NCBI GenBank assembly: GCA_963924555.1
Contig: OZ004586.1
Span: 434,001 to 498,000 of the forward strand
DNA length: 64,000 nucleotides
Origin: Crambe crambe
Lineage: Eukaryota > Porifera > Demospongiae > Poecilosclerida > Crambeidae
Direction of reading: 5' to 3'
A program made the position numbers and the translations under genes. Below, in pieces: positions 5,922 through 61,019 of this stretch; within the stretch, counting starts at the first letter, position 1; each line of letters starts with the position of its first letter. The notes beneath the pieces are model-generated. The model was not told where the DNA came from and did not search any database. It was given only the letters and a program-made list of their open reading frames with translations.

Positions 5922-7121
5922 GTGTAGATGAGAGGACTCTCTTGAAAAGGGAAGACAATGCAGAAAGGTCTGCTCAGTTATGCCCTAAAAATTGTTATAC
6001 CTAGCTAAATGTAAAAAGAATATGCTACATCATTCATTCATCCATCCCTAAATATTGATAGAACTAGCTATTAGCATGTTGATGCTTTTACTTTAGGGGA
6101 ACGATGATTTTAATACCCTTACCTTAAGAACAGCCATTTCCCCCAATAGAGAGAGGACGGAAGAGGTAGGGTCTGGGTAGGAGAAGAGATATCAGATGAC
6201 CTCTAATACCAATGGATAGAACTCACTTTTTCCCTTATCACTTGTGACCTGAGAAGAAAGATGGAAATTTTGGACAGTAGAGGCAGCAGATTCTTGATAT
6301 TGAGTTTTCAGTTGACCTGTTAAAGTAACAATGAGAATTGATCATGATATACTTAATAGTTAGCTAATCTTTACCTTGTGCAATCTTTTGAGCGAGTTCT
6401 TCATGACCAATAGTTCTGAGTGCTTTCATCAAGCTCTCCCAGGTGGGTTTACCACTCTCCTTCATCACATTATCTTGCTGATTGAGCCAAGCCAAAACCA
6501 ATCCTTCACATAGTGAATCAGATGTCATTCTATCCATGGTGGGGTAGCGGAGTCCCAGAGCCCCACCCAATGATTTCAAGTCTTTTAAAAGTAGATCTTC
6601 CAAACATTGAGTGACTTTGAAATGGTCATCAACTTTTAGTTGTGCTACAAAACAAGAAAAGAAAAGAAAGAAAATGGATGGGATCACCAACAAGCACTGG
6701 ATAAAGAAAGCAGGAGTGTCTAGTTATCACTAAAGGAAGTTGGAAAAGCCATGTAGGTGGGAATAAAAACACAGCTACATACCTTTGAGGGTTTTTCCAG
6801 CTTCTTTCATGCTTGAAATCCTGGAAATGATTTCACTAGATCTATGGCAACTATTATTATGGGATAAATTGTTTATTCTAGATCAGATCTTCAACGAGCC
6901 ACCTCCAAGATGTTTGAATTTCCTAAGACTGGATAGTTTATCGTAGTATTTCAGGAGACAGGAAGAAAATAAAGGGCGTGGTGAAAGTCGGGAGATTCCC
7001 TTAAGACCATTTTTGTCGGGGGTGTGTAGTCACATGATACCGTAGAAGGTATGATGTTCCTTACCTAAAAATCGTTCTTACGTAGGGCGGAAGCTTCGAA
7101 GCTGGCTAGCTGTATTGAAGA

Positions 7122-15200: not shown

Positions 15201-17353
15201 CACGCTTGCATAAATTGATCTTAACTTCCCTCGGAACAGTACCTGAACTAGAGGATGAGCTGACTGTGGAAGGAGCAGGTTCTGGACATTCAACATTCAG
15301 TTGATCTAAATACATAATGAAAATAAATTGTTCCCTTGTCAAGTATTTTTTCTTGTTACCTTCAGATGGTGTGGGAGTATCTGATGTCAACTGTTGAACA
15401 CCTGTAATGAAATAAGCACCTGAAATTAACTGGTCATATCTACTGGCATTTATAAGATAATGTAGATCTTAGAATGGATGATCATTGATCTTAATTAAAT
15501 GTGAATACATCTGAGTGGCAATACCTGTTCCAGTGATGTCACTAACTGTGCCAATTGCTGAGTCAGCATCATCAATACCCTTCACCTTAAGGGCAGCCAT
15601 TTCCCCCACTAGAGAGAGGACAGGGTCTGGGTAGGAGAAGAGATATCAGATGACATCAAATACCAATGGAGAGAACTCACCTTTTCCCTTATCATCAGTT
15701 GTGACCTGAGAAGAAAGATTGAGATTCTTGTCTCCATAGCTGATATTCATGAACCTCAGACTTTGCAAAGCAAGCTGTTGTTCTTCAGTAATGGCATCTA
15801 TTATGTTGTCATCCAAAGTTCGGTATTTTATCTTGCAACCTTCATCAATATGCAGCAGTCGTAACACTGGACCTTCCAATGCACTTTTCATCCTCTTCTC
15901 TAGTTTCCCAAATTCTTCGATGGTCATTTTGTCAAGCTCTATTTCACATTTCAGAGAGAGAACTTTTTCTGATTTCTCTACATTACCAAATGCATTACTC
16001 GGACATTCACAAACTCGTCTTTTAGAATACTCCTTTATCTTTTTTGTAAAACTTTTAAGTGCCTCTTTATTTCTTCTTCCACCAAATTTCTTAATCCAAA
16101 GCTTTATGATATGATGATCATGAAAAGAACAAAATCTAGACACTCTGCAAAAAGCTTCAGTTTTTGTATCACAACCTTCTTCAAATTTCATATCATGATA
16201 TTTAAGGAGGCTTAGAAAGTCATCAAATGTGTACGATTCTTGTACAGACTCTTGAAGACCAAAGATGAGATTAACAAATCTTGTTTTCATCTGTTCAGTT
16301 TCTTGGTAAAGCTGATTCATTTTAATCTTCTTTTCATCTTCTGACATTCCATGAGTTGGGAGAAAAGGAAAATGTGGAATAAGTTCCACAAATCTTGTTT
16401 TCATCTGTTCAGTTTCTTGGTAAAGCTGATTCATTTTAATCTTCTTTTCATCTTCTGACATTCCATGAGTTGGGAGAAAAGGAAAATGTGGAATAAGTTC
16501 CACAAGACTTAGCACTGAAAATTATAGTTATTAACACTTAGCATAGAAACTCTTCAAATAACATACCTGAACTGGAGCATGAACTGACAGTAGAGGCTGC
16601 AGATTCTTGATATTGAGTTTTCAGTTGATCTGTTGAAGTGACAATGAGAATTGATCACGATATACTTAATAGTTAACTAATATTTACCTTGTGCAATCTT
16701 TTGAGCAATTCCTTCATGACCAATAGTTCTGAGTGCTTTCATCAAGCTCTCCCAGGTGGGTTTACCACTCTCCTTCATCACATTATCTTTCTGATTGAGC
16801 CAAGCCCAAACCATATCTTCACGAAGAGGGTTCATCATCTTCAAGTTGTTATACTGAAGACCCAGTGCTAAACCCAACCGTATCAAGTCTTCTGGAAGTA
16901 GAGTTCCCAAATATTGGGTGACTTCAAAGAGATCATTCACTGTTAGTTGTGCTACAAAAGACAAACAAATGAAAAACAAACAAAAAACAAAACAAAACGA
17001 AAAAAGGTGAAGAGATGGATGAGCTGAAGTAACAGTGTATGGGGATCTTGATATTGTTAGACTTACTCTCTGGGCCTGGGTTAGATTCGACATCACCACA
17101 GAGTATCAAGAGAGAGGGGAGAACTGTCTGTGCAAAGGACAGGTTGAGAAGGGAGCCATGATCCCCCAGATCAGATTGAACACAGAAGGTGTTTGATGTG
17201 GGGGAAGAGAGATCACCAACAAGCACTGGATAAAGAAAGGATGAGTGTCTAGTCATCACTAAAAGAAGTTGGAAAATACTTATTTTTCTCTTATGTAGGC
17301 AAGAAATAAAAACATAGTTGCATACCTTTGAAGGTTTTTTCAGCTTCTTTCAT
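12261..17353 (-). CDS. ANK2: 2A / death-domain / double central-module / ankyrin gene (mosaic)
   Basis: Exons in transcription order: 17326-17353 (MKEAEKTFK), 17067-17258 (2A), 16688-16951 (death domain, PEDL type), 16567-16629, 15681-16514 (central domain Y), 15525-15608 (truncated acidic exon), 15360-15401, 15243-15305, 14472-15184 (central domain X), 14230-14399 (acidic, VGEMAALKV start), 12261-13388 (ankyrin). The gene thus carries a Y module followed by a complete X module. The Y exon has a perfect 114-bp tandem duplication. The X exon is 713 nt instead of 732 (deletions of 10, 8 and 1 bases), so it is frameshifted. Skipping it keeps the frame, because its neighbours are phase 1, and would give about 955 residues. 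The ankyrin exon has a 44-bp deletion that creates a stop after RTALH, removing the last repeats. Poly(A) signal AATAAA at 11973-11978. The long intron 13,389-14,229 holds no gene. Probably transcribed, but function doubtful. Confidence 0.7.
17071..17097 (-). other. 2A ribosome-skipping motif of ANK2
   Basis: Encodes GDVESNPGP, preceded by the hydrophobic LPSLLILC. It matches the 2A consensus D-V/I-E-x-N-P-G-P, at which ribosomes fail to join Gly to Pro and then continue. The predicted break is between the last G and P, about 70 residues from the start and directly before the death domain. Confidence 0.85.
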
Positions 17354-21702: not shown

Positions 21703-24700
21703 CTAACAGTGTGAGTGGAAATAATCCACCACTTCACTGTGACCCTCTGCTTGGGCCAGCTGGAGTGGAGTCTTGTTAAACATGTTTCTGATGTTTGGGG
21801 AGCAATGGAGATGTTCGATGAAATACTTGATAGTTGCAAGTTGACCATACTCTGCTGCCCAGTGAAGTGGAGTTCCAAGATCTTTGTCTTGTAACATAGC
21901 GTTGCATCCTTTGACTTCAGTTAGATATCGGATGATGGATAGGTGTCCATCAATGGCTGCAATATGTAAAGGTGTAGAATTGTTGTCATCCAGAGAATTG
22001 GGGTCACAGGCATGATTCTCTATGAGATTCTTGACGAGGTGGAGGTGACCTTCTTGTGAAGCATTGTGAAGTGGTCGTCTTCCATACTCACCAGGAACAT
22101 TCGGATTGCACTGCATAATATTTATTAAATAGTCACAAACATCACTATGTCCATGAAGGGCTGCATGGTGAAGTGGTGTGGTGTTCCTCTTGTTCCTACA
22201 GAGAGGATCACACCTCATGTCTTCACATAGATATTGCACTATTGATAAGTGCCCATCCTGTGCAGCATAATGTAGGGGGGTGGCATGATTATCATTTCTA
22301 CTCTCAGGGTCACACCCACACTCCATTATCAGGAACTTGACAATGGACAAGTGACCCTTCTGTGCAGCATCAAAAAGAGGTCCTCCACCATGCTTACCAC
22401 CATCTGGAAGGTTGGGGTCACAATTGCAGTCGTGGATAACATATTTCAATATGTTGATGTGACCATTCAGAGCTGCAATGTGGACGGGAGAAGTCTGATA
22501 CTTTGTGAAATCCTTGAAAATATCTTCCATCTTCATGAAGGTCAGCATTGTCTCCATCAAGTACTTCACTACTTTTAAATTTCCACCCATACAAGCTCTG
22601 TGTAGAGGTGAGAAACCTTCCTCGTCCTGCTCAAGGGGATCTACTTGGTGCTTGTCGACTAGATACTGTACTATGTTGAGATGACCTGTTTCAGCTGCTT
22701 GGTGTAATGGTGTCATTCTATATTGACCTAACGCCGCAGGGTTGCATAGCTCACTTTCGATCAGGTACTCCAGCACTTCCAATCTTCCATTGATAGCTGC
22801 TAGATGTAGTGATGTATTATTGTTCCCATCTTTTGTTAAGGGGTTGAGTCCCTTTGTGATGAGACGCTTCACTTCTTCCAGGTCTCCTATTTCGGCAGCA
22901 TGATGCAATTCCAAGCTCTGCTTGGTGGTGGTTTCTGCTGAGACTATCATGTCCAGTCGTGGGTCCTTCAAGTCTCTCCCAACATAGTCCTGTCATGTGA
23001 GGGAAGGAAATTCTCACTCTAGTACTAACATAATAGAGGAATTGTTGACTTATTAGCTATAGAAGTCTGGAAATTTATGGACTGTGCCACAGACATTACA
23101 ACCATTGTTTACAAGTAACAGCAATTAGAAAATACATGGAAATGAAATTAATCAAATACAAGTAAGCTGTAACCATGGATATTAAAACTAGCAAACATTA
23201 GGTGTGAGTAAAATGACTATGCTCGATTGTTTTCTTGATCTCCAATTCTACCTATTAAGCTTCTTAAACATTGTTCTATATGTAGCAATAAATTTATCAG
23301 CATTGAAGATATTCTTCTCTCATTAAATGAAGTGACAAAACCCTTTCATAAGCTTAAGCTCAATTATGCCCTAAAAGTTATTATGTCTAAATGTAAAAGA
23401 ATATGCTACATCATTTATTCATTAAAAATTTCCGAATTGGGTAGAACTAGTAGCACGTTGACATCTTTGTGTTAGGGGAATGATGATTTTAAAATCCTTA
23501 CCTGGAACACAGACATTACAACCATTGTTTACAAGTAACAGAAATTAAAAAATACATTGAAACTAAATACAAATAAGCTGTAACCATGGATATTAAAATT
23601 AATAAAAACCTGATGTAAATGAATATGCTTCCAAATAATGTTTTTATATTAGGAGGAATGATGACTTGTAAAATACTTACCTGGAACTCATCAGAGATAT
23701 AGGTCCCGAGTCCTGATGTGAATATGCTTCCACCATCATCTGAGTGAGTGGCAATACCTGTTCCAGTGATGTCACTAACTGCACCAGATGCTGAGTCAGC
23801 ATCATCATCACCATCTCTACCCTTCACCTTAAGGGCAGCCATTTCCCCCACTAGAGAGAGGACAGGGTCTGGGTAGGAGAAGAGACATCAGATGACGTCT
23901 AATACCAATGGAGAGAACTCACCTTTTCCCTCATCATCAGTTGAGACCTGAGAAGAAAGATCGAGACTCTGGTCTCCATAGCTGATATTCACGAACCCCA
24001 GACTTTTCAGAGCAAGCTTTTGTTCTTCAGTAATAACATCTATCATGTTGTTATCCAAAGTTCGGTATTTCATCTTGCAACCTTCATCAATACACAGCAG
24101 TCGTAACACTGGACCTCCCAATGCAATTTTCATCCTTTTCTCTAGTTTTCCAAATTCTTCAATGGTCATTTTGTCAAGCTCTATTTCACTTTCCAGAGAG
24201 ACAACTTTTTCTGATTTCTCTGCATTACCAAATGCATCACTTGGACATTCACAAACTCGTCTTTTAGAATACTCCTGGATCTTTTGTTTAAAACTTTTAA
24301 GTGCCTCTTTATTTTCCCTTCCACCAAATTTCTTAATCCAAAGCTTTATAATATGATGATCGTGAAAAGAGCAAAATCTAGACACTCTACGAAAAGCTTC
24401 AGTCATTGTATCAGAACCTTCCAACAATTTTTCTTCAAATTTCATATCATAAAGATTAAGGAGGCTTAGAAAGTCATCGAATGTGTACGATTCTCGTACA
24501 GACTTCTGAAGACCAAAGATGAGTTTAAAAAATCTAGTTTTAATCTGTTCAGTTTCCTGATAAAGCTGACTCATTTTAATCTTTTTTTCATCTTCTGACA
24601 TTCCATGAGTTGGGAGAAAAGGAAAATGTGGAATAAGTTCCACAAGACTTAGCACTGAAAAATTATAGTTATTAATACTTAGCATAGAAACACTTCAAAT

Positions 24701-25439
24701 AACATACCTGAACTGGCGCATGAACTGACAGTAGAGGCAGCAGATTCATGATATTGAGTTTTCAGTTGATCTGTTGAAGTGACAATGAGAATTGATCACG
24801 ATATACATAAAATCTTTACCTTGTGCTATCTGTTGAGCCAGTCCTCCATGATCAATAGTTCTGAGTGCTCTCATCAAGCTCTCCCAGGTGGGTTTACCAC
24901 TCTCCTTCATCACATTATCTCGCTGATTGAGCCAAGCCAAAACCAATCCTTCACATAATGAATCAGATGTCATCCTATCCAAGGTGGTGTAGCGGAGTCC
25001 CAGAGCCCCACCCAACGATTTCAAGTCTTTTAAAAGTAGATCTTTCAAACTTTGACAGACTTTAAAATGATCATCAACTTTTAGTTGTGCTACAAAAAAA
25101 AGGAAAAAAATTGGATGGGCTACAGTGACATAGGATATCATTTCTCAAAATGATTTGTTAGACTTACTCTCTGGACCTGGGTTAGATTCGACATCACCAC
25201 AGAGTATCAAGAGAGAGGGGAGAACTGTCTGTGCAAAGGACAGGTTGAGAAGGGAGCCATGATCCCCCAGATCAGCATGAACACAGAAGGTGTTTGGTGT
25301 GGGGGAAGAGAGATCACCAACAAGCACTGGATAAAGAAAGGATGAGTGTCTAGTTATCACTAAAGGAAGTTGGAAAAGCTATGTAGGTGGGAATAAAACA
25401 CAGCTACATACCTTTGAGGGTTTTACCGGCTTCTTTCAT
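21703..25439 (-). CDS. ANK3: intact 2A / death-domain / central-domain Y / ankyrin gene
   Basis: Seven exons, all with GT-AG ends and consistent phases: 25412-25439 (MKEAGKTLK), 25168-25359, 24820-25089, 24708-24770, 23923-24654, 23681-23850, 21703-22989; together about 913 residues. Residues 1-71 are the leader ending GDVESNPG, with P72 starting the downstream product. The death domain (about 74-162) has the expected tryptophans in AWLNQ and PTWESL. Then come a Ser/Thr-rich linker, the unnamed central domain (about 185-428: VELIPHFPFLPTHG, FDDFLSLL, RFCSFHDHHIIKLWIKKFG, YSKRRVCECP), an acidic DGDDDADSA linker and about 12 ankyrin repeats (TPLHxAAxxGHLxIVxYL) ending HSHC-stop. AATAAA at 21523-21528. 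Death domains mediate homotypic assembly, usually in immune or apoptotic signalling; the role here is inferred. Confidence 0.9.
25172..25198 (-). other. 2A ribosome-skipping motif of ANK3
   Basis: GDVESNPGP, preceded by VLPSLLILC. The exon ends two codons later, and the next exon gives TQLKVDD, the death-domain start, so skipping would release a cytosolic product beginning Pro-Glu-Thr. Confidence 0.9.

Positions 25440-26064: not shown

Positions 26065-26096
<32 letters not shown>
26065..26096. repeat. Poly-C run (32 bases)
   Basis: An uninterrupted C tract at the junction between ANK3 upstream sequence and IARS fragment II. The equivalent junction at 63,740-63,766 has 27 C. Its length may be unreliable in assembly. 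Confidence 0.8.
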
Positions 26097-34500: not shown

Positions 34501-35635
34501 TCAAAGACGAGGTTAGTAAATTTAGCTTTCAAACGTTCAGTTTCTTTCTGCAACTGTCTCATTTTAAACCTTTTCTCGTCTTCTGACATCCCATCGGTAA
34601 GTAAGAATGGAAAACATGGAATGAGATCTACAGCACTCATATCTGAAATTTCAAGTAACACGCTTGAATAAATAGATCTTAACTTCACTCAGAACAATAC
34701 CTGAACTAGAGGATGAGCTGACTGTGGAAGGAGCAGGTTCTGGACATTCAACATTCAGTTGATCTAAAATGAAGATAAAATCATTCCCTTGTTAAGAATT
34801 TTTTTTTATTTACCTTCAGAATTCATGTCACATGGTGTGGGAGTGTCTAATGTCAACTGTTGAACATCTGTAACAAAATAAGCCCCGAAAATCATTAACT
34901 GTTTTGTTATATCAACTGGCATTATGAGACCATGTATTTCAGTTGATTTTTATCAGAAGCCAATCATATCCACAACTAGTTGATTTGGATACTGAGTAGT
35001 TAATAGTCCAGTATTAGCAGTAACTACCTTGTGCAATCTTTTGAGCGAGTCCTTCATGACCAATAGTTCTGAGTGCTTTCATCAAGCTCTCCCAGGTGGG
35101 TTTACCACTCTCCTTCATCACATTATCTTGCTGATTGAGCCAAGCTGAAACCAATCCTTCACATAGTGAATCAGATGTCATCTTATCCATGGTGGTGTAG
35201 CGGAGTCCCAGAGCCCCACCCAATGATTTCAAGTCTTTTAAAAGTAGATCTTTCAAACATTGAGTGACTTTGAAATGGTCATCAACTTTTAGTTGTGCTA
35301 CAAGAAAAGAAAAAAATGGATGGGCTACAGTGACACTATAGGAAATAAGATATCATTTCTCAAAATGATTTGTTAGACTTACTCTCTGGACCTGGGTTAG
35401 ATTCGACATCACCACAGAGTATCAAGAGAGAGGGGAGAACTGTCTGTGCAAAGGACAGGTTGAGAAGGGAGCCATGATCCCCCAGATCAGATTGAACACA
35501 GAAGGTGTTTGATGTGGGGGAAGAGAGATCACCAACAAGCACTGGATAAAGAAAGGATGAGTGTCTAGTTATCACTAAAGGCAGGAAATAAAAACATAGT
35601 TGCATACCTTCGAGGGTTTTTTCAGCTTCTTTCAT
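31574..35635 (-). CDS. ANK4: intact 2A / death-domain / central-domain X / ankyrin gene
   Basis: Exons: 35608-35635 (MKEAEKTLE), 35383-35574 (2A), 35028-35297 (death domain, KDLKSLGG type), 34814-34867 (extra exon DVQQLTLDTPTPCDMNSE), 34701-34763, 33926-34642 (central domain X: VDLIPCFPFLLTDG, KFWSFYDRDLIKLLMNRFG, YSKRQICECP), 33684-33853, 31574-32857 (ankyrin). All phases agree; about 925 residues. Intron 1 is only 33 nt, a multiple of three, and open, so retention would insert 11 residues (MQLCFYFLPL region), making the leader more hydrophobic. AATAAA at 31394-31399. The 33-nt intron is short enough that splicing is uncertain. Confidence 0.88.
35387..35413 (-). other. 2A ribosome-skipping motif of ANK4
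   Basis: GDVESNPGP with the same upstream residues as ANK2 and ANK3, directly before the death-domain exon. Confidence 0.9.
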
Positions 35636-47000: not shown

Positions 47001-48376
47001 GTACCTGAACTAGAGGATGAGCTGACTGTGGAAGGAGCAGGTTCTGGACACTCAACATTCAGTTGATCTAAAGATATAAATTAAAGATAAAAGTCACTTA
47101 TCAAGTATCATTTCCCCTTACCTTCAGAATTCATGTCAGATGGTGTGGGAATATCTGATGCCAATTGTTGAACACCTGTAACAAAATAAGCCCTGAAAAT
47201 CATTAACTAACTGGTTATAATCGCATTATAAGATTGTGTATTTCAGTTGATCTTTAGAATGGATCTTTATTTTAATCATATCCACAACTAGTTGATTTGG
47301 ATACTGAGTAGTTACTAGTCCAGAATTAGCTGTAACTACCTTGTGCAATCTTTTGAGCAAGTCCTTCATGACCAATAGTTCTGAGTGCTTTCATCAAGCT
47401 CTCCCAGGTGGGTTTACCACTCTCCTTCATCACATTATCTTGCTGATTGAGCCATGCCAAAACCATGTCTCCACAAAGAGGGTTCATCATCTTCAAGTTG
47501 CTGTAGTGGAGACCCAATGCCCCACCCAACTGTATCAAGTCTTCTGGAAGAAGAGTTTTCAAATATTGAGTGACTTTAAAATGGTCATCCACTGTTAATA
47601 GTGCTACAAACAGACAAACAAACAAGAGATGGATGAGCTAAAGTAACAGTGCATGAGGATCTTGATATTAATAAGGCTGTGTCTACAGTGCCAGCACCGG
47701 CATCGGGAATTTTCTTCTTGGAGTGCCGGCAGGACACATAGAAAAATTTTCAAAAATTGAAAAAGAAAAAATGTCCAATTTGGGAATCGAACCCGAGACC
47801 GCACGTTCCATAGCACACGGCACTAACTGATGCGCTACAGTGGCAACGCTGCAAGCATCTGTTTGAAAGCGATACTTATACTTCTAATCTCAAACTCTTT
47901 GGTTGCCTTAGGGAGCCCTTTGGGCGAGTGTTGCCTAGCCTTGGAGTCACAACAGTGCGTGAATAGTACGTCCCATACACCTAATGCTCGCTCCCTTGCA
48001 GGAGCCGGCCTATGTATTAACCTGCCGGCACTCCAAGAAGAAAATTCCTGATGCCGGTGCCGGCACTGTAGACACTGCGAATATTAATAAATATTGTTAG
48101 ACTTACTCTCTGGACCTGGGTTAGATTCGACATCACCACAGAGTATCAAGAGAGAGGGGAGAACTGTCTGTGCAAAGGACAGGTTGAGAATGGAGCCATG
48201 ATCCCCCAGATCAGATTGAACACAGAAGGTGTCTGATGTGGGGGAAGAGAGATCACCAACAAGCGCTGGATAAAGAAAGCAGGAGTGTCTAGTTATCATT
48301 AAAGGAAGTTGGAATATAATATCTAGAGGGAACAAAATTATAGACCTAGTTGCATACCTTTGAGTGCTTCTTTCAT
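44082..48376 (-). CDS. ANK5: 2A / death-domain / central-domain X / ankyrin gene with shifted start
   Basis: Exons: 48358-48376 (MKEALK, three codons shorter than in other copies), 48107-48298 (2A), 47340-47603 (death domain, PEDL type), 47122-47175, 47005-47067, 46215-46946 (central X), 45973-46142, 44082-45365 (ankyrin). The usual acceptor of exon 2 (TTTAG) is TTTAA here, so the splice from exon 1 is lost. The same base change makes an ATG at 48297-48299 in the correct frame (MITRHSCFLYPAL). Starting there gives about 919 residues with the 2A about 62 residues in. Everything downstream is open with correct splice sites. AATAAA at 43902-43907. Intron 2 carries the element at 47,675-48,080. 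Confidence 0.8.
47675..48080. mobile_element. 406-bp palindromic element in ANK5 intron 2
   Basis: It has long inverted termini: GTGTCTACAGTGCCAGCACC and TTTTCTTCTTGGAGTGCCGG at left, and the reverse complements at right (about 55 bp each, few mismatches). It is flanked by ATATTAATAA at 47665-47674 and 48081-48090. The matching intron of ANK2 (near 17,050) has no insert. Confidence 0.75.
47768..47850 (-). ncRNA. tRNA-like (Pol III) sequence inside the element
   Basis: On the minus strand there is an A-box-like TAGCGCATCAGTTAGTGCC, then the B-box GGTTCGATTCC with a short T-arm, then a run of T's that could terminate Pol III. The acceptor stem pairs poorly, so it is more likely a tRNA-derived SINE core or tRNA pseudogene than a working tRNA. 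Confidence 0.45.
48111..48137 (-). other. 2A ribosome-skipping motif of ANK5
   Basis: GDVESNPGP, preceded by VLPSLLILC, unchanged although the leader upstream differs at several positions. Confidence 0.9.
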
Positions 48377-55624: not shown

Positions 55625-56815
55625 CTAACAGTGTGAGTGGAAATAATCCACCACTTCACTGTGACCCTCTGCTTGAGCCAGCTGGGGTGGAGTCATGTTA
55701 AACATGTTTCTGATGTTTGGGGAGCAATGGAGATGTTCGATGAAATACTTGACAGTTGCAAGCTGACGAAACTCTGCTGCCCAGTGAAGTGCAGTGCCAT
55801 ACTTCTTGGATTGTAACATAGCATTGCATCCTTTGACTTCAGTTAGATATTGGATGATGGATAGGTGTCCTTTGATGGCTGCAATATGTAAAGGTGTAGA
55901 ATTGTTGTCATCCAGAGAATTGGGGTCACAGGCATGATTCTCTATGAGATTCTCGACAAGGTGGAGGTGACCTTCTTGTGAAGCATGGTGAAGTGGTCGT
56001 CTTCCACACCAACCAGGAACATTAGGATTGCACTGCATAATGTTTATTAAATAGTCACAAACATCACTATGTCCATTACGGGCTGCATGGTGAAGTGGTG
56101 TGCTGTTCCGCTTGTTCCTACAGAGAGGATCACACCTCATGTCTTCACATAGGTATTGCACTATTGATAAGTGCCCATTCTTTGCAGCATAATGTAGGGG
56201 GGTGGCATGATAATCATTTCTACTCTCAGGGTCACACCCACACTCCATTGTCAGGAACTTGACAATGGACAAATGACCCTGTTGTGTGGCAGCACGGAGA
56301 GGACCTCCACCAAGCACACCACTAGAAAGGATGGGGTCACAATTGCAGTCGTGGATAAAATATTTCAATATTTCGATGTGATCATTCATAGCTGCAAGGT
56401 GGATGGGAGAAGTCTGATGCTTTGTTAAATCCTTGAAAATATCTTCCATCTTCATGAAGGTCAGCATTGTCTCCATCAAGTACTTCACTACTTTTAAATT
56501 TCCATTCATACAAGCTCTGTGTAGAGGTGAGGTACCTTCCTCGTCCTGCTCAAGGGGATCGACTTGGTGCTTTTCGACTAGATACTGTACTATGTTGAGA
56601 TGACCATTAAAAGCTGCTTGGTGTAATGGTGTTGCTCCATACTGACCCAACGCCGCAGGGTTGCATAGCTCACTTTCGATCAGGTACTCCAGCACTTCCA
56701 ATCTTCCATTGCTTGCTGCTAGATGTAGTGATGTATTATTGTGCACATTTTTTGTTAAGGGGTTGAGTCCCTTTGTGATGAGACGCTTCACTTCTTCCAG
56801 GTCTCCTATGCATGA
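55625..56815 (-). pseudogene. ANK6: orphan ankyrin exon
   Basis: An open ankyrin frame of about 388 codons ending HSHC with a good AATAAA at 55446-55451. The start of the exon (DYVGRDLKDPRLD to about residue 35) is missing, and none of the six upstream exons is present. The sequence passes through a scrambled 15-base stretch into MAP3K intron DNA at about 56,828. Its frame is still open, so the break may be recent, or gene conversion may maintain it. Confidence 0.8.
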
Positions 56816-56827
56816 TGGTTACCACTA

Positions 56828-57217: not shown

Positions 57218-60200
57218 CTAACAGAGTGAGTGGAAATAATCCACCACTTCACTGTGACCCTTTGCTTGGGCCAGCTGGAGTGGAGTCTTGTTAAACATGT
57301 TTTTGATGCTTGGGGAGCAATGGAGATGTTCGATGAAATACTTGATAGTTGCGAGCTGACCATACTCTGCTGCCCAGTGGAGTGCAGTGCCTCTATTCTT
57401 GTCTTGTAACATAGCGTTGCATCCTTTGACTTCAGATAGATATCGGATGATGGATAGGTGTCCATCCATGGCTGCAATATGTAAAGGTGTAGAATTCCTG
57501 TCATCCAGAGAATTGGGATCGCAGGCATGATTCTCAATGAGATTCTTGATGAGGTGGAGGTGACCTTCTTGTGAAGCATTGTGAAGTGGTCGTCTTCCAC
57601 ACCAACCAGGAACATTAGGATTGCACTGCATAATGTTTATTAAATAGTCACAAACATCACTATGTCCACGAAGGGCTGCAGTGTGAAGTGGTGTGCTGTT
57701 CCACTTGTCCCTACAGAGAGGATCACACCTCATGTCTTTACATAGATATTGCACTATTGTTAAGTGCCCATTCAGTGCAGCAAGACCTAGGGGGGTGGCA
57801 TGCTCATCATTTCTACTCTCAGGGTCACACCCACACTCCATTATCAGGAACTTGACAATGGATAAGTGACCCCTCTGTGCAGCATCATAAAGAGGTCCTC
57901 CACCATGCACACCACTAGGAAGGTTAGGGTCACAATTGCAGTCATGGATAAAATATTTCAATGTTTCGATGTGACCAAATTCAGTTGCAACGTGGACGGG
58001 AGAAGTCTGATACTTTGTGAAATCCTTGAAAACATCTTCCATCTTCATGAAGGTCAGCATTGTCTCCATCAAGTACTTCACTACCTTTAAATTTCCACCT
58101 ATACAAGCTCTGTGTAGAGGTGAGAGACCCTCTTCATCCTGCTCAAGAGGATCGACTTGGTGCTTTTCGACTAGATACTGTACTATGTTGAGATGACCTG
58201 CTTCAGCTGCACTGTGTAATGGTGTTTTTTCATGCCAGCCTAACACAGATGGGTTGCATAGTTCAGTTTCGATCAGGTACTCAAGCACTTCTGATTTTCC
58301 ATTGCTAGCTGCTAGATGTAGTGATGTATTATTGTTCGCATTTTTTGTTAAGGGGTTGAATCCCTTTGTGATGAGTCGCTTCACTTCTTCCAGGTCTCCT
58401 CTTTTGGCAGCATGATGCAATTCCAAGCTCTGCTTGGTGGTGGTTTCTGCTGAGACTATCATGTCCAGTCGTGGGTCCTTCAAGTCTCTCCCAACATAGT
58501 CCTGTCATGTGAGGGAAGGAAATTCTCACTCTAGTACTAACATAATAGAGGAATTGTTGACTTATTAGCTCTAGAAGTCTGGAAATTTATGGACTGTGCC
58601 ACAGACATTACAACCATTGTTTACAAGTAACAGCAATTAGAAAATACATGGAAATTAAATTGATCAAATACAAGTAAGCTGTAACCATGGATATTAAAAT
58701 TAGTAAACATTAGGTGTGAGTAAAATTACTCTGCTCCATTGTTGTCTTGATCTCCAATTCTACCTATTAAGCTTCTTAAACATTGTTCTATATGTAGCAA
58801 TAAATTTATCAGCATTGAAGATATTCTTCTCTCAGTAAATGAAGTGACAAAACCCTTTCATAAGCTGTGTAGATGAGGGTTGACTAAGAGGACTCTCTTG
58901 AAAAGGGAAAACAATGAGGGTAATTCATCCTGGCTCACTGAACCTCAGAAAGGTCTATGAGTAATTGCCTATTAAGCCCTAAAAGTTATTATGTCTAAAT
59001 GTAAAAGAATATGCTACATCATTTATTATTGAATTAGGTAGAACTAGTAGCACGTTGATATCTTTATGTTAGGGGAATGATGATTTTAAAATCCTTACCT
59101 GGAACACAGACATTACAACCATTGTTTACAAGTAACAGAAATTAAAAAATACATTGAAACTAAATACAAATAAGCTGTAATCATGGATATTAAAATTAGT
59201 AAAAACCTGATGTAAATGAATATGCTTCCAAATAATATGTTTTTATATTAGGAGGAATGATGACTTGTAAAATACTTACCTGGAACTCATCAGCGAGTCC
59301 TGATGTGAATATGTTTCCACTATCATCTGAGTGAGTGGCAATACCTGTTCCAGTGATGTCACTTACTGCACCAGATGCTGAGTCAGCATCATCATCACCA
59401 TCTCTACCCTTCACCTTAAGGGCAGCCATTTCCCCCACTAGAGAGAGGACAGGGTCTGGGTAGGAGAAGAGACATCAGATGACGTCTAATACCAATGGAG
59501 AGAACTCACCTTTTCCCTTATCATCAGTTGAGACCTGAGAAGAAAGATCGAGACTCTGATCTCCATAGCTGATATTCACGAACCCCAGACTTTGCAGAGC
59601 AAGCTTTTGTTCTTCAGTAATAACATCTATCATGTTGTTATCCAAAGTTCGGTATTTCATCTTGCAACCTTCATCAATACACAGCAGTCGTAACACTGGA
59701 CCTCCCAATGCAATTTTCATCCTTTTCTCTAGTTTTCCAAATTCTTCGATGGTCATTTTGTCAAGCTCTATTTTACTTTCCAGAGAGACAACTTTTTCTG
59801 ATTTCTCTGCATTACCAAATGAATTACTTGGACATTCACAAACTCGTCTTTTAGAATACTCCTGGATCTTTTGTTTAAAACTTTTAAGTGCCTCTTTATT
59901 TTCCCTTCCACCAAATTTCTTAATCCAAAGCTTTATAATATGATGATCATGAAAAGAGCAAAATCTAGACACTCTACGAAAAGCTTCAGTCATTGTATCA
60001 GAACCTTCCAACAATTTTTCTTCAAATTTCATATCATAAAGATTAAGGAGGCTTAGAAAGTCATCGAATGTGTACAATTCTCGTACAGACTTCTGAAGAC
60101 CAAAGATGAGTTTAACAAATCTAGTTTTAATCTGTTCAGTTTCTTGATAAAGCCGACTCATTTTAATCTTTTTTTCATCTTCTGACATTCCATGAGTTGG

Positions 60201-61019
60201 GAGAAAAGGAAAATGTGGAATAAGTTCCACAACACTTAGCACTGAAAAATTATAGTTATTAACACTTAGCATAGAAACACTTCAAGTAACATACCTGAAC
60301 TGGCGCATGAACTGACAGCAGATTCATGATATTGAGTTTTCAGTTGATCTGTTGAAGTGACAATGAGAATTGATCGCGATATACATAAAATCTTTACCTT
60401 GTGCTATCTGTTGAGCCAGTCCTCCATGATCGATAGTTCTGAGTGCTCTCATCAAGCTCTCCCAGGTGGGTTTACCACTCTCCTTCATCACATTATCTTG
60501 CTGATTGAGCCAAGCCAAAACCAATCCTTCACATAGTGAATCAGATGTCATCCTATCCAAGGTGGTGTAGCGGAGTCCCAGAGCCCCACCCAACGATTTC
60601 AAGTCTTTTAAAAGTAGATCTTTCAAACATTGAGTGACTTTGAAATGATCATCAACTTTTAGTTGTGCTACAAAGAAAAGAAAAAAAATTGGATGGGCTA
60701 CAGTGACATAGGATATCATTTCTCAAAATGATTTGTTAGACTTACTCTCTGGACCTGGGTTAGATTCGACATCACCACAGTGTATCAAGAGAGAGGGGAG
60801 AACTGTCTGTGCAAAGGACAGGTCGAGAAGGGAGCCACGATCCCCCAGATCAGCATGAACACAGAAGGTGTTTGGTGTGGGGGAAGAGAGATCACCAACA
60901 AGCACTGGATAAAAGAAAGCAAGAGTGTCTAGTTATCACTAAAGGACGTTGGAAAAGCTATGTAGGTGGGAATAAAAACACAGCTACATACCTTTGAGGG
61001 TTTTTCCGGCTTCTTTCAT
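57218..61019 (-). CDS. ANK7: 2A / death-domain / central-domain Y / ankyrin gene with a frameshift in the leader
   Basis: Exons: 60992-61019, 60746-60938 (2A exon), 60398-60667 (death domain), 60295-60348 (linker, three codons shorter), 59510-60241 (central Y), 59280-59437 (acidic, four codons shorter), 57218-58501 (ankyrin). It is a close duplicate of ANK3. All indels are in frame except one: exon 2 is 193 nt because of an extra A in a short A run (near 60,912-60,915). This ends the leader frame at a TGA before the 2A. The rest is open, so either the gene is newly inactivated, or translation restarts downstream, or the base is a sequencing error. AATAAA at 57100-57105. Confidence 0.78.
60750..60776 (-). 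other. 2A ribosome-skipping motif of ANK7
   Basis: GDVESNPGP, preceded by VLPSLLIHC (Leu to His two residues before the core). It is now out of frame with the exon-1 ATG because of the upstream extra base. Confidence 0.8.

Follow-up and report, generated by a model that had tools for sequence, protein, structure and literature searches.

Outside viruses, 2A (or StopGo) signals are regarded as uncommon, and their presence in non-long-terminal-repeat (non-LTR) retrotransposons was reportedly described by Odon et al. in 2013. Among the closest described systems is that of the NLRs of the sea urchin Strongylocentrotus purpuratus, of which 85 out of 241 carry an N-terminal 2A, according to excerpts of Roulston et al. 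2016 (PMC4981915). In those excerpts, the sea urchin leader (SpNLR2A) has 26 residues and a skipping efficiency of approximately 80%, a skip-dead fusion goes mainly to the Golgi, and 12 of 14 leaders are predicted signal sequences. Excerpts of Li et al. 2026 (PMC12846837) describe a working StopGo class in which DxExNPGP follows an L-rich stretch with (A/S/C)G at its end, and a motif-6 example was active in vitro; they also report that Rao et al. 2025 searched viral and cellular proteomes for 2As by profile hidden Markov model, and that motifs 6 and 2 reportedly have a counterpart in the class A found there. Here we describe a putative 2A leader in a sponge gene family, namely the death-domain/ankyrin genes of a stretch of 64,000 nucleotides from Crambe crambe (assembly GCA_963924555.1, contig OZ004586.1, positions 434,001 to 498,000 of the forward strand), hereafter referred to as the window.

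Among the matches listed by our literature searches, there was no report of a 2A in sponges or in death-ankyrin genes. The main text of an article on sponge NLRs (PMC12909245) is without the terms “NPGP”, “recoding” and “signal peptide”, and PMC8623073 mentions neither NLR, nor sponge, nor retrotransposon. A further article, retrieved with “Amphimedon” and “2A-like” (PMC5890393), uses the term only inside a protein name.

The leader exon in the window genes

The window contains six death-domain/ankyrin genes, all on the minus strand. In five of them (ANK2, 3, 4, 5 and 7), the leader closes with GDVESNPGP, as an earlier note on this DNA had proposed; the motif is in frame with a conserved ATG. 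The note had also claimed a full 2A consensus and an invariant core, and both claims hold: all five window sites read (D/G/C/N)(V/I)ExNPGP as part of a canonical L-rich 2A, and the core letters are the same in all five. Across the C9 leader family, which comprises 27 copies including those of the window, the core is DVESNPGP in 25/27 and DVETNPGP in 2/27, this S to T variant being the only one. The leader is N-terminal as the note described it, but shorter than the approximately 70 residues given there: with the exon start at 25326, the window leaders have 57-60 residues up to the Gly.

This length depends on the splice acceptor. In ANK3, exon B starts at 25326 with the acceptor TTATCCAG, which is located 33 bases inside an alternative TTTAG acceptor (exon start 25359). 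The TTATCCAG acceptor is found in 27/27 C9 copies, and the exon it defines is in phase 1 and open into the 2A in 26/27; the reading from the ATG of exon A to the 2A is likewise predicted to be in frame in 26/27. In a trial of all acceptors, TTATCCAG was the sole acceptor listed for L005, L057 and L062, hence no alternative fits every copy under the filters used. A reading of these loci as broken copies, which arises with the TTTAG acceptor through apparent frameshifts and an AG lost in the 48-kb copy, was rejected given that TTATCCAG places 26/27 in frame. The indels and the lost TTTAG site of several copies are thus intronic.

Among the 26 in-frame copies, exon B has 159 nt in 24, 162 nt in L054 and 150 nt in L065, differences that amount to whole codons. 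Since exon B is in phase 1 at both ends, a direct join of exon A to exon C is also in frame. In ANK3, in-frame stops are present upstream of the ATG of exon A, and all introns are in phase 1 except the last, which is in phase 0. In ANK2, the 50 codons upstream of the ATG are free of in-frame stops, which makes its start codon less certain.

Recurrence of the leader end across the genome

The assembly (143 Mb, 119 contigs) was searched with the pattern D(V/I)ExNPGP, with Met also admitted for V/I. The search yielded 208 sites, in comparison with 0.13 expected from the base composition of the window, and the reversed core pattern yielded no match in the same genome. We placed 207 of the 208 sites, one of which (C5:9085034) has Met for V/I. 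These are distributed among 15 contigs, with 163 of the 207 in 21 clusters of at least three sites, and in 16 of these clusters all sites are on one strand. Position p11 is Gly in 207/208 sites, though p11 was not part of the search pattern. Cores whose p12 codon lacks A in second place were found at only 11 sites, with 3 expected, and a few of these non-Asp cores could be real variants.

Seventy sites were read individually: the 27 of the C9 family and 43 chosen, non-randomly, across other arrays (L001, L007 and L008 were omitted as duplicates of window copies). All 70 present C, A or S at p10, which was likewise unsearched, and G at p11, while p15 varies (S in 25, T in 22, L in 10, V in 9, M in 2 and I in 2). 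The best splice donor within 46 nt behind the core is in phase 1 in 70/70, being strong (i.e., with at least 3 of 4 consensus bases) in 63 and weak in seven. Inspection of ten loci from a second leader family and its relatives showed that there, too, the acceptor gives phase 1. At L039 (C9:6224379-6225578), an in-frame stop lies shortly before the 2A, and this leader copy is perhaps decaying.

A query made of the second-family leader without its core returned 73 matches, 68 of which extend to the end of the query, and an exact core adjoins 67 of these 68. The remaining one, L073 (C11:2665840-2667239), has an insert of approximately 490 bp between leader and core, with ends that by eye are matching and inverted. 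As for the five shorter matches, three are at loci with a core, L074 reads NLGP, and L075 (contig C26) is without a core.

Signs of selection on the leader end

The ratio of replacement to silent changes (pN/pS) was computed for 24 C9 copies, leaving out L055, L067 and the 60.7-kb copy. It is 0.22 for the last 26 codons, i.e., the hydrophobic and 2A end, and 0.88 for leader codons -40 to -19. For the 22 copies with a full death exon, the values are 0.88 for the leader, 0.22 for its end and 0.47 for the death exon. The low value of the leader end supports selection on it, without amounting to proof.

Domains downstream of the 2A

According to the earlier note, the death domain starts in the exon directly after the 2A. 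This stands for the exon order, the two exons being joined across a phase-1 intron; the likely domain itself is divergent and, in the four window exons scanned, does not reach the Pfam cut-off. When a profile of 14 such exons was compared with the Protein Data Bank (PDB), the top matches included death domains (E-values of 0.0035 for PIDD, 0.0059 for ankyrin-2 and 0.0064 for RIPK1, as well as THOC1 and FADD), with unrelated chains below and between them. Exon C of the window genes is regarded as a likely, though unproven, death domain. The ankyrin repeats of exon G of ANK3 exceed the Pfam cut-off (Table 1). When exons C, E and G of ANK3 were scanned, no NACHT was found in these three exons, which gave a weak Death match, nothing and ankyrin, respectively. 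A protein database search, in which the best 8000 candidates were scored, returned four matches covering 21-36% of the query, all from ankyrin families and one also with NACHT.

For the other arrays, 34 open frames were selected by hand among 20 loci, each 10 kb long, and scanned, with the frames of L017, L020 and L021 left out. Downstream of the 2A, on the same strand, were found NACHT (L022, L029 and L032), NB-ARC with TPR (L030), COR-A with ankyrin (L028), ankyrin (L023) and Ig (L013 and L029). Death is above the cut-off at L014, L024 and L029 (25.9, 27.6 and 24.8 bits), and matches under the cut-off include Roc (L018), CARD (L026) and Death (L015, L018, L023 and L025). Approximately one third of the 34 frames gave nothing useful. 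These downstream domains presumably share a transcript with the 2A.

The 2A is not a general mark of NLRs, an option rejected because, of the 103 NACHT matches scored among 232 candidates, only 6 are preceded by a placed 2A at a distance of up to 15 kb. At C9 ~7.06-7.53 Mb there is a dense one-strand NACHT array with none of the 207 placed 2As inside it; 2As start at 7.556 Mb, and genes bearing the cassette are here neighbours of genes lacking it. When the best 150 of 965 Death candidates were compared with 2A positions, four were downstream of a 2A, one upstream and none on the opposite strand within 3 kb. Within 15 kb, the same 150 of 965 gave five downstream, six upstream and one opposite, i.e., no enrichment. 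The PF00531 repertoire of this genome is very large, with 965 candidates at first look, and all of the 150 scored are above the cut-off.

Proposed mechanism and alternative explanations

We propose, with a probability of roughly 0.72, that the leader exon is a StopGo cassette, which would produce a skipped leader, a receptor starting with Pro and a minor fused form. That the leaders are skipped during translation is, taken by itself, very probable, judging from the motif and its resemblance to active 2As. The motif, the frame in the C9 family, the symmetry of the exon, the signs of selection and the recurrence in the genome can be read from the DNA itself.

In the proposed mechanism, the ribosome would first make the leader of approximately 60 residues. 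With the hydrophobic end and DVESNPG in the exit tunnel, the bond between Gly and Pro would often remain unformed; the leader would be released and translation would continue, giving a receptor which starts with Pro-Glu-Thr at the death domain (~842 residues in ANK3). This second product, already suggested in the earlier note, is what the exon B/C junction predicts. A minority of ribosomes would link Gly to Pro, yielding the leader-fused receptor, predicted in ANK3 as a protein of ~902 residues (MKEAGKTLKVLVGDLSSPTPNTFCVHADLGDHGSLLNLSFAQTVLPSLLILCGDVESNPG / PETQLKV...). Given its 159 nt and phase 1 at both ends, exon B could also be omitted in splicing with the frame kept, and splicing and StopGo could jointly set the ratio of the forms.

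Several observations weigh against this proposal. The window gene models are predictions, built on conservation and splice signals. L067 is out of frame with the common splice, and would be in frame only with a different length of exon A. In ANK1, a deletion took the 2A and the donor of exon B, while exon A and the death exon are intact; the NLGP copy at L074 has lost its 2A, and the three C9-like remnants read, out of four on C5 (L070-L072), are without a core. Start codons were modelled for the C9 family, so the N-terminal place is presumed elsewhere, including at L013, L039 and L044, whose leader exons have no in-frame Met. The pN/pS values derive from a small number of changes, the 24 copies being tandem relatives, and the 60.7-kb copy, outside that set, has a replacement just before the core (LLIHCG). 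As for the death domain, PF00531 was compared with four of the five window death exons (all but that of the 60-kb copy): three score 14.6, 14.2 and 17.9 bits, under the gathering score of 22.6, and the 48-kb copy has no match. The fold predicted from a single death-exon sequence is poor (predicted local distance difference test, pLDDT, of 53.5).

The leader-fused form may differ from the skipped one in location or stability. One explanation, which would add to the StopGo cassette rather than replace it, is dual targeting as in the sea urchin NLRs: the unskipped leader would act as a signal sequence or anchor, so the minor form would be secretory and the skipped form cytosolic. We consider this possible, with somewhat less than even odds. 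The sea urchin precedent is published (excerpts of PMC4981915), and in each of the five window copies a hydrophobic run immediately precedes the core. The earlier note had likened this run to that of active 2As; its presence is borne out, but it is late and borderline. It spans residues 35-53 of approximately 60 (in the 48-kb copy, residues 32-50). Over 19 residues, its Kyte-Doolittle mean reaches at best 1.64 in three window copies, and 1.67 and 1.27 in the other two; the leader N-terminus is charged in the window family, which by eye is not signal-like. Stronger runs are found at other loci, with values of 2.4-3.1 for the best 19 residues at, for example, L014, L013, L029 and L043-L046. At 50 of the 70 sites, the 19-residue mean reaches at least 1.6 within 100 residues before the core, in the genomic frame, yet the other 20 remain below this value.

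Alternatively, the 2A may merely strip off the leader, which would serve as a released peptide or as a device for translation rate, or would leave an N-terminal Pro that sets receptor turnover, with the receptor in a single location. This is in agreement with the leaders of the different families, which by eye differ before their last ~20 residues and are constant in (C/A/S)G and the core, and with the earlier part of the C9 leader, which evolves almost freely (pN/pS of 0.88). We regard it as rather unlikely, less so than the two explanations that follow.

A third explanation holds that the core is functionless and was kept by recent tandem duplication and gene conversion alone. The C9 copies are indeed closely related and arrayed, with 23 on a single strand at C9 306-572 kb. 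Against this, the core recurs on 15 contigs, behind leaders of different look and in different codons. Further, the last 19 codons of the 24 copies have silent changes at five codons, and their sole replacement, S to T, affects the free x position, the LLIHCG copy being outside this count. This explanation is therefore improbable.

Finally, the idea that the sites are pieces of non-LTR retrotransposons caught near genes is very unlikely, although 2As are published for such elements (excerpts of PMC4981915 and PMC11512398); present-day retrotransposon loci were rejected because only 1 of 207 placed sites has a reverse transcriptase match within 8 kb downstream on the same strand (best 150 of 801 candidates) and because the genomic frame after the core is short (median of 15 codons, maximum of 168, over the 70 sites) and followed by a phase-1 donor. 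In the deep past, the first cassette may have come from a retrotransposon.

A broader version of the StopGo proposal takes the cassette as a control module placed generally at the front end of this animal's immune-receptor repertoire: a shuffled phase 1-1 leader exon in about 200 genes of several architectures, giving two forms per receptor, set by skipping efficiency and exon choice, and possibly shifting when infection disturbs translation. We find this version doubtful at present. Should most of the 208 sites prove to be N-terminal StopGo leaders that are translated, one animal would use skipping as a routine step of gene expression, tied to innate immunity. The genome would then offer a natural series of intact, weakened and dead 2As for probing the purpose of the skip, and the sea urchin case would be no oddity, but part of a pattern that arose, or was kept, in other animals as well.

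Gene structures in the window

The coordinates of the predicted exons and 2A cores are presented in Table 1.

Table 1. Predicted features of the death-domain/ankyrin genes in the window.
Feature	Position	Strand	Remarks
DVESNPGP cores of ANK2, 3, 4, 5 and 7, respectively	17071-17094, 25172-25195, 35387-35410, 48111-48134, 60750-60773	-	
ANK3 exon A	25412..25439	-	ATG at 25439; MKEAGKTLK; ends in phase 1 before GTATGT
ANK3 exon B	25168..25326	-	159 nt, phase 1-1; remaining leader and 2A; acceptor TTATCCAG, donor GTAAGT
ANK3 2A core DVESNPGP	25172..25195	-	predicted skip between Gly and final Pro
ANK3 exon C	24820..25089	-	divergent, likely death domain; first codon split by intron (...NPG / P-E-T-QLKVDD)
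ANK3 exon D	24708..24770	-	linker; 63 nt, phase 1-1
ANK3 exon E	23923..24654	-	~244 codons; without Pfam match
ANK3 exon F	23681..23850	-	acidic linker
ANK3 exon G	21703..22989	-	ankyrin repeats and stop codon; Ank_2 8.2e-92
ANK2 (17-kb copy) exon A	17326..17353	-	
ANK2 exon B	17067..17225	-	death exon ~16689-16949
ANK4 (35-kb copy) exon A	35608..35635	-	
ANK4 exon B	35383..35541	-	death exon ~35029-35295
ANK5 (48-kb copy) exon A	48358..48376	-	in frame, 9 nt shorter
ANK5 exon B	48107..48265	-	death exon ~47341-47598
ANK7 (61-kb copy) exon A	60992..61019	-	
ANK7 exon B	60746..60904	-	LLIHCG replaces LLILCG before core; death exon ~60399-60668
ANK1, 2A-less	6376..6810	-	exon A 6783-6810; exon B truncated after 6683; death exon 6376-6645

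ANK1 is also without most of exon E, and may be decaying. A seventh ankyrin block, at 55625-56818, comes without its own leader or death exon, and seems to be a partial duplicate of the block next to it, at 57218-58504. Exon E encodes a domain of ~240 residues, flanked by the death and ankyrin parts. Units resembling it by eye are found behind L024 and L031, and it may represent a shared, undescribed domain. Upstream of ANK3, C stands 32 times in a row at positions 26065-26096, which is read as G on the gene strand.

Comparison with known systems

In comparison with the 2A-bearing non-LTR retrotransposons, the loci described here share a 2A in a non-viral genome, whereas here the core lies at the end of a spliced exon, by a donor, with no long frame after it. 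With motifs 2 and 6 of the L-rich class (excerpts of PMC12846837), the agreement lies in the hexapeptide ending in (A/S/C)G, in Gly at p11 and Asp at p12 and, for the window family, in Ser at p15. The L-rich class is paired with Ser at p15 in those excerpts, whereas p15 is varied over the 70 sites read here.

As far as the excerpts of PMC4981915 allow, the likeness with SpNLR2A is as follows: in both cases immune-type genes with a death domain have a canonical 2A close to, or at, the N-terminus, a hydrophobic stretch precedes the core, and the genes form a large multigene family. Skipping activity has been demonstrated for SpNLR2A, whereas for the sponge leader it is predicted. Unlike the sea urchin leader of 26 residues, the leader described here has approximately 60 residues encoded in two exons, one of them a phase 1-1 exon, and its hydrophobic run is late and borderline. 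The domains downstream also differ, with ankyrin, COR-A, NB-ARC-TPR and Ig found here besides NACHT. Hence, the sponge leader would appear to be a variant of the sea urchin NLR leader principle, serving a broader range of genes and residing on a symmetric exon.
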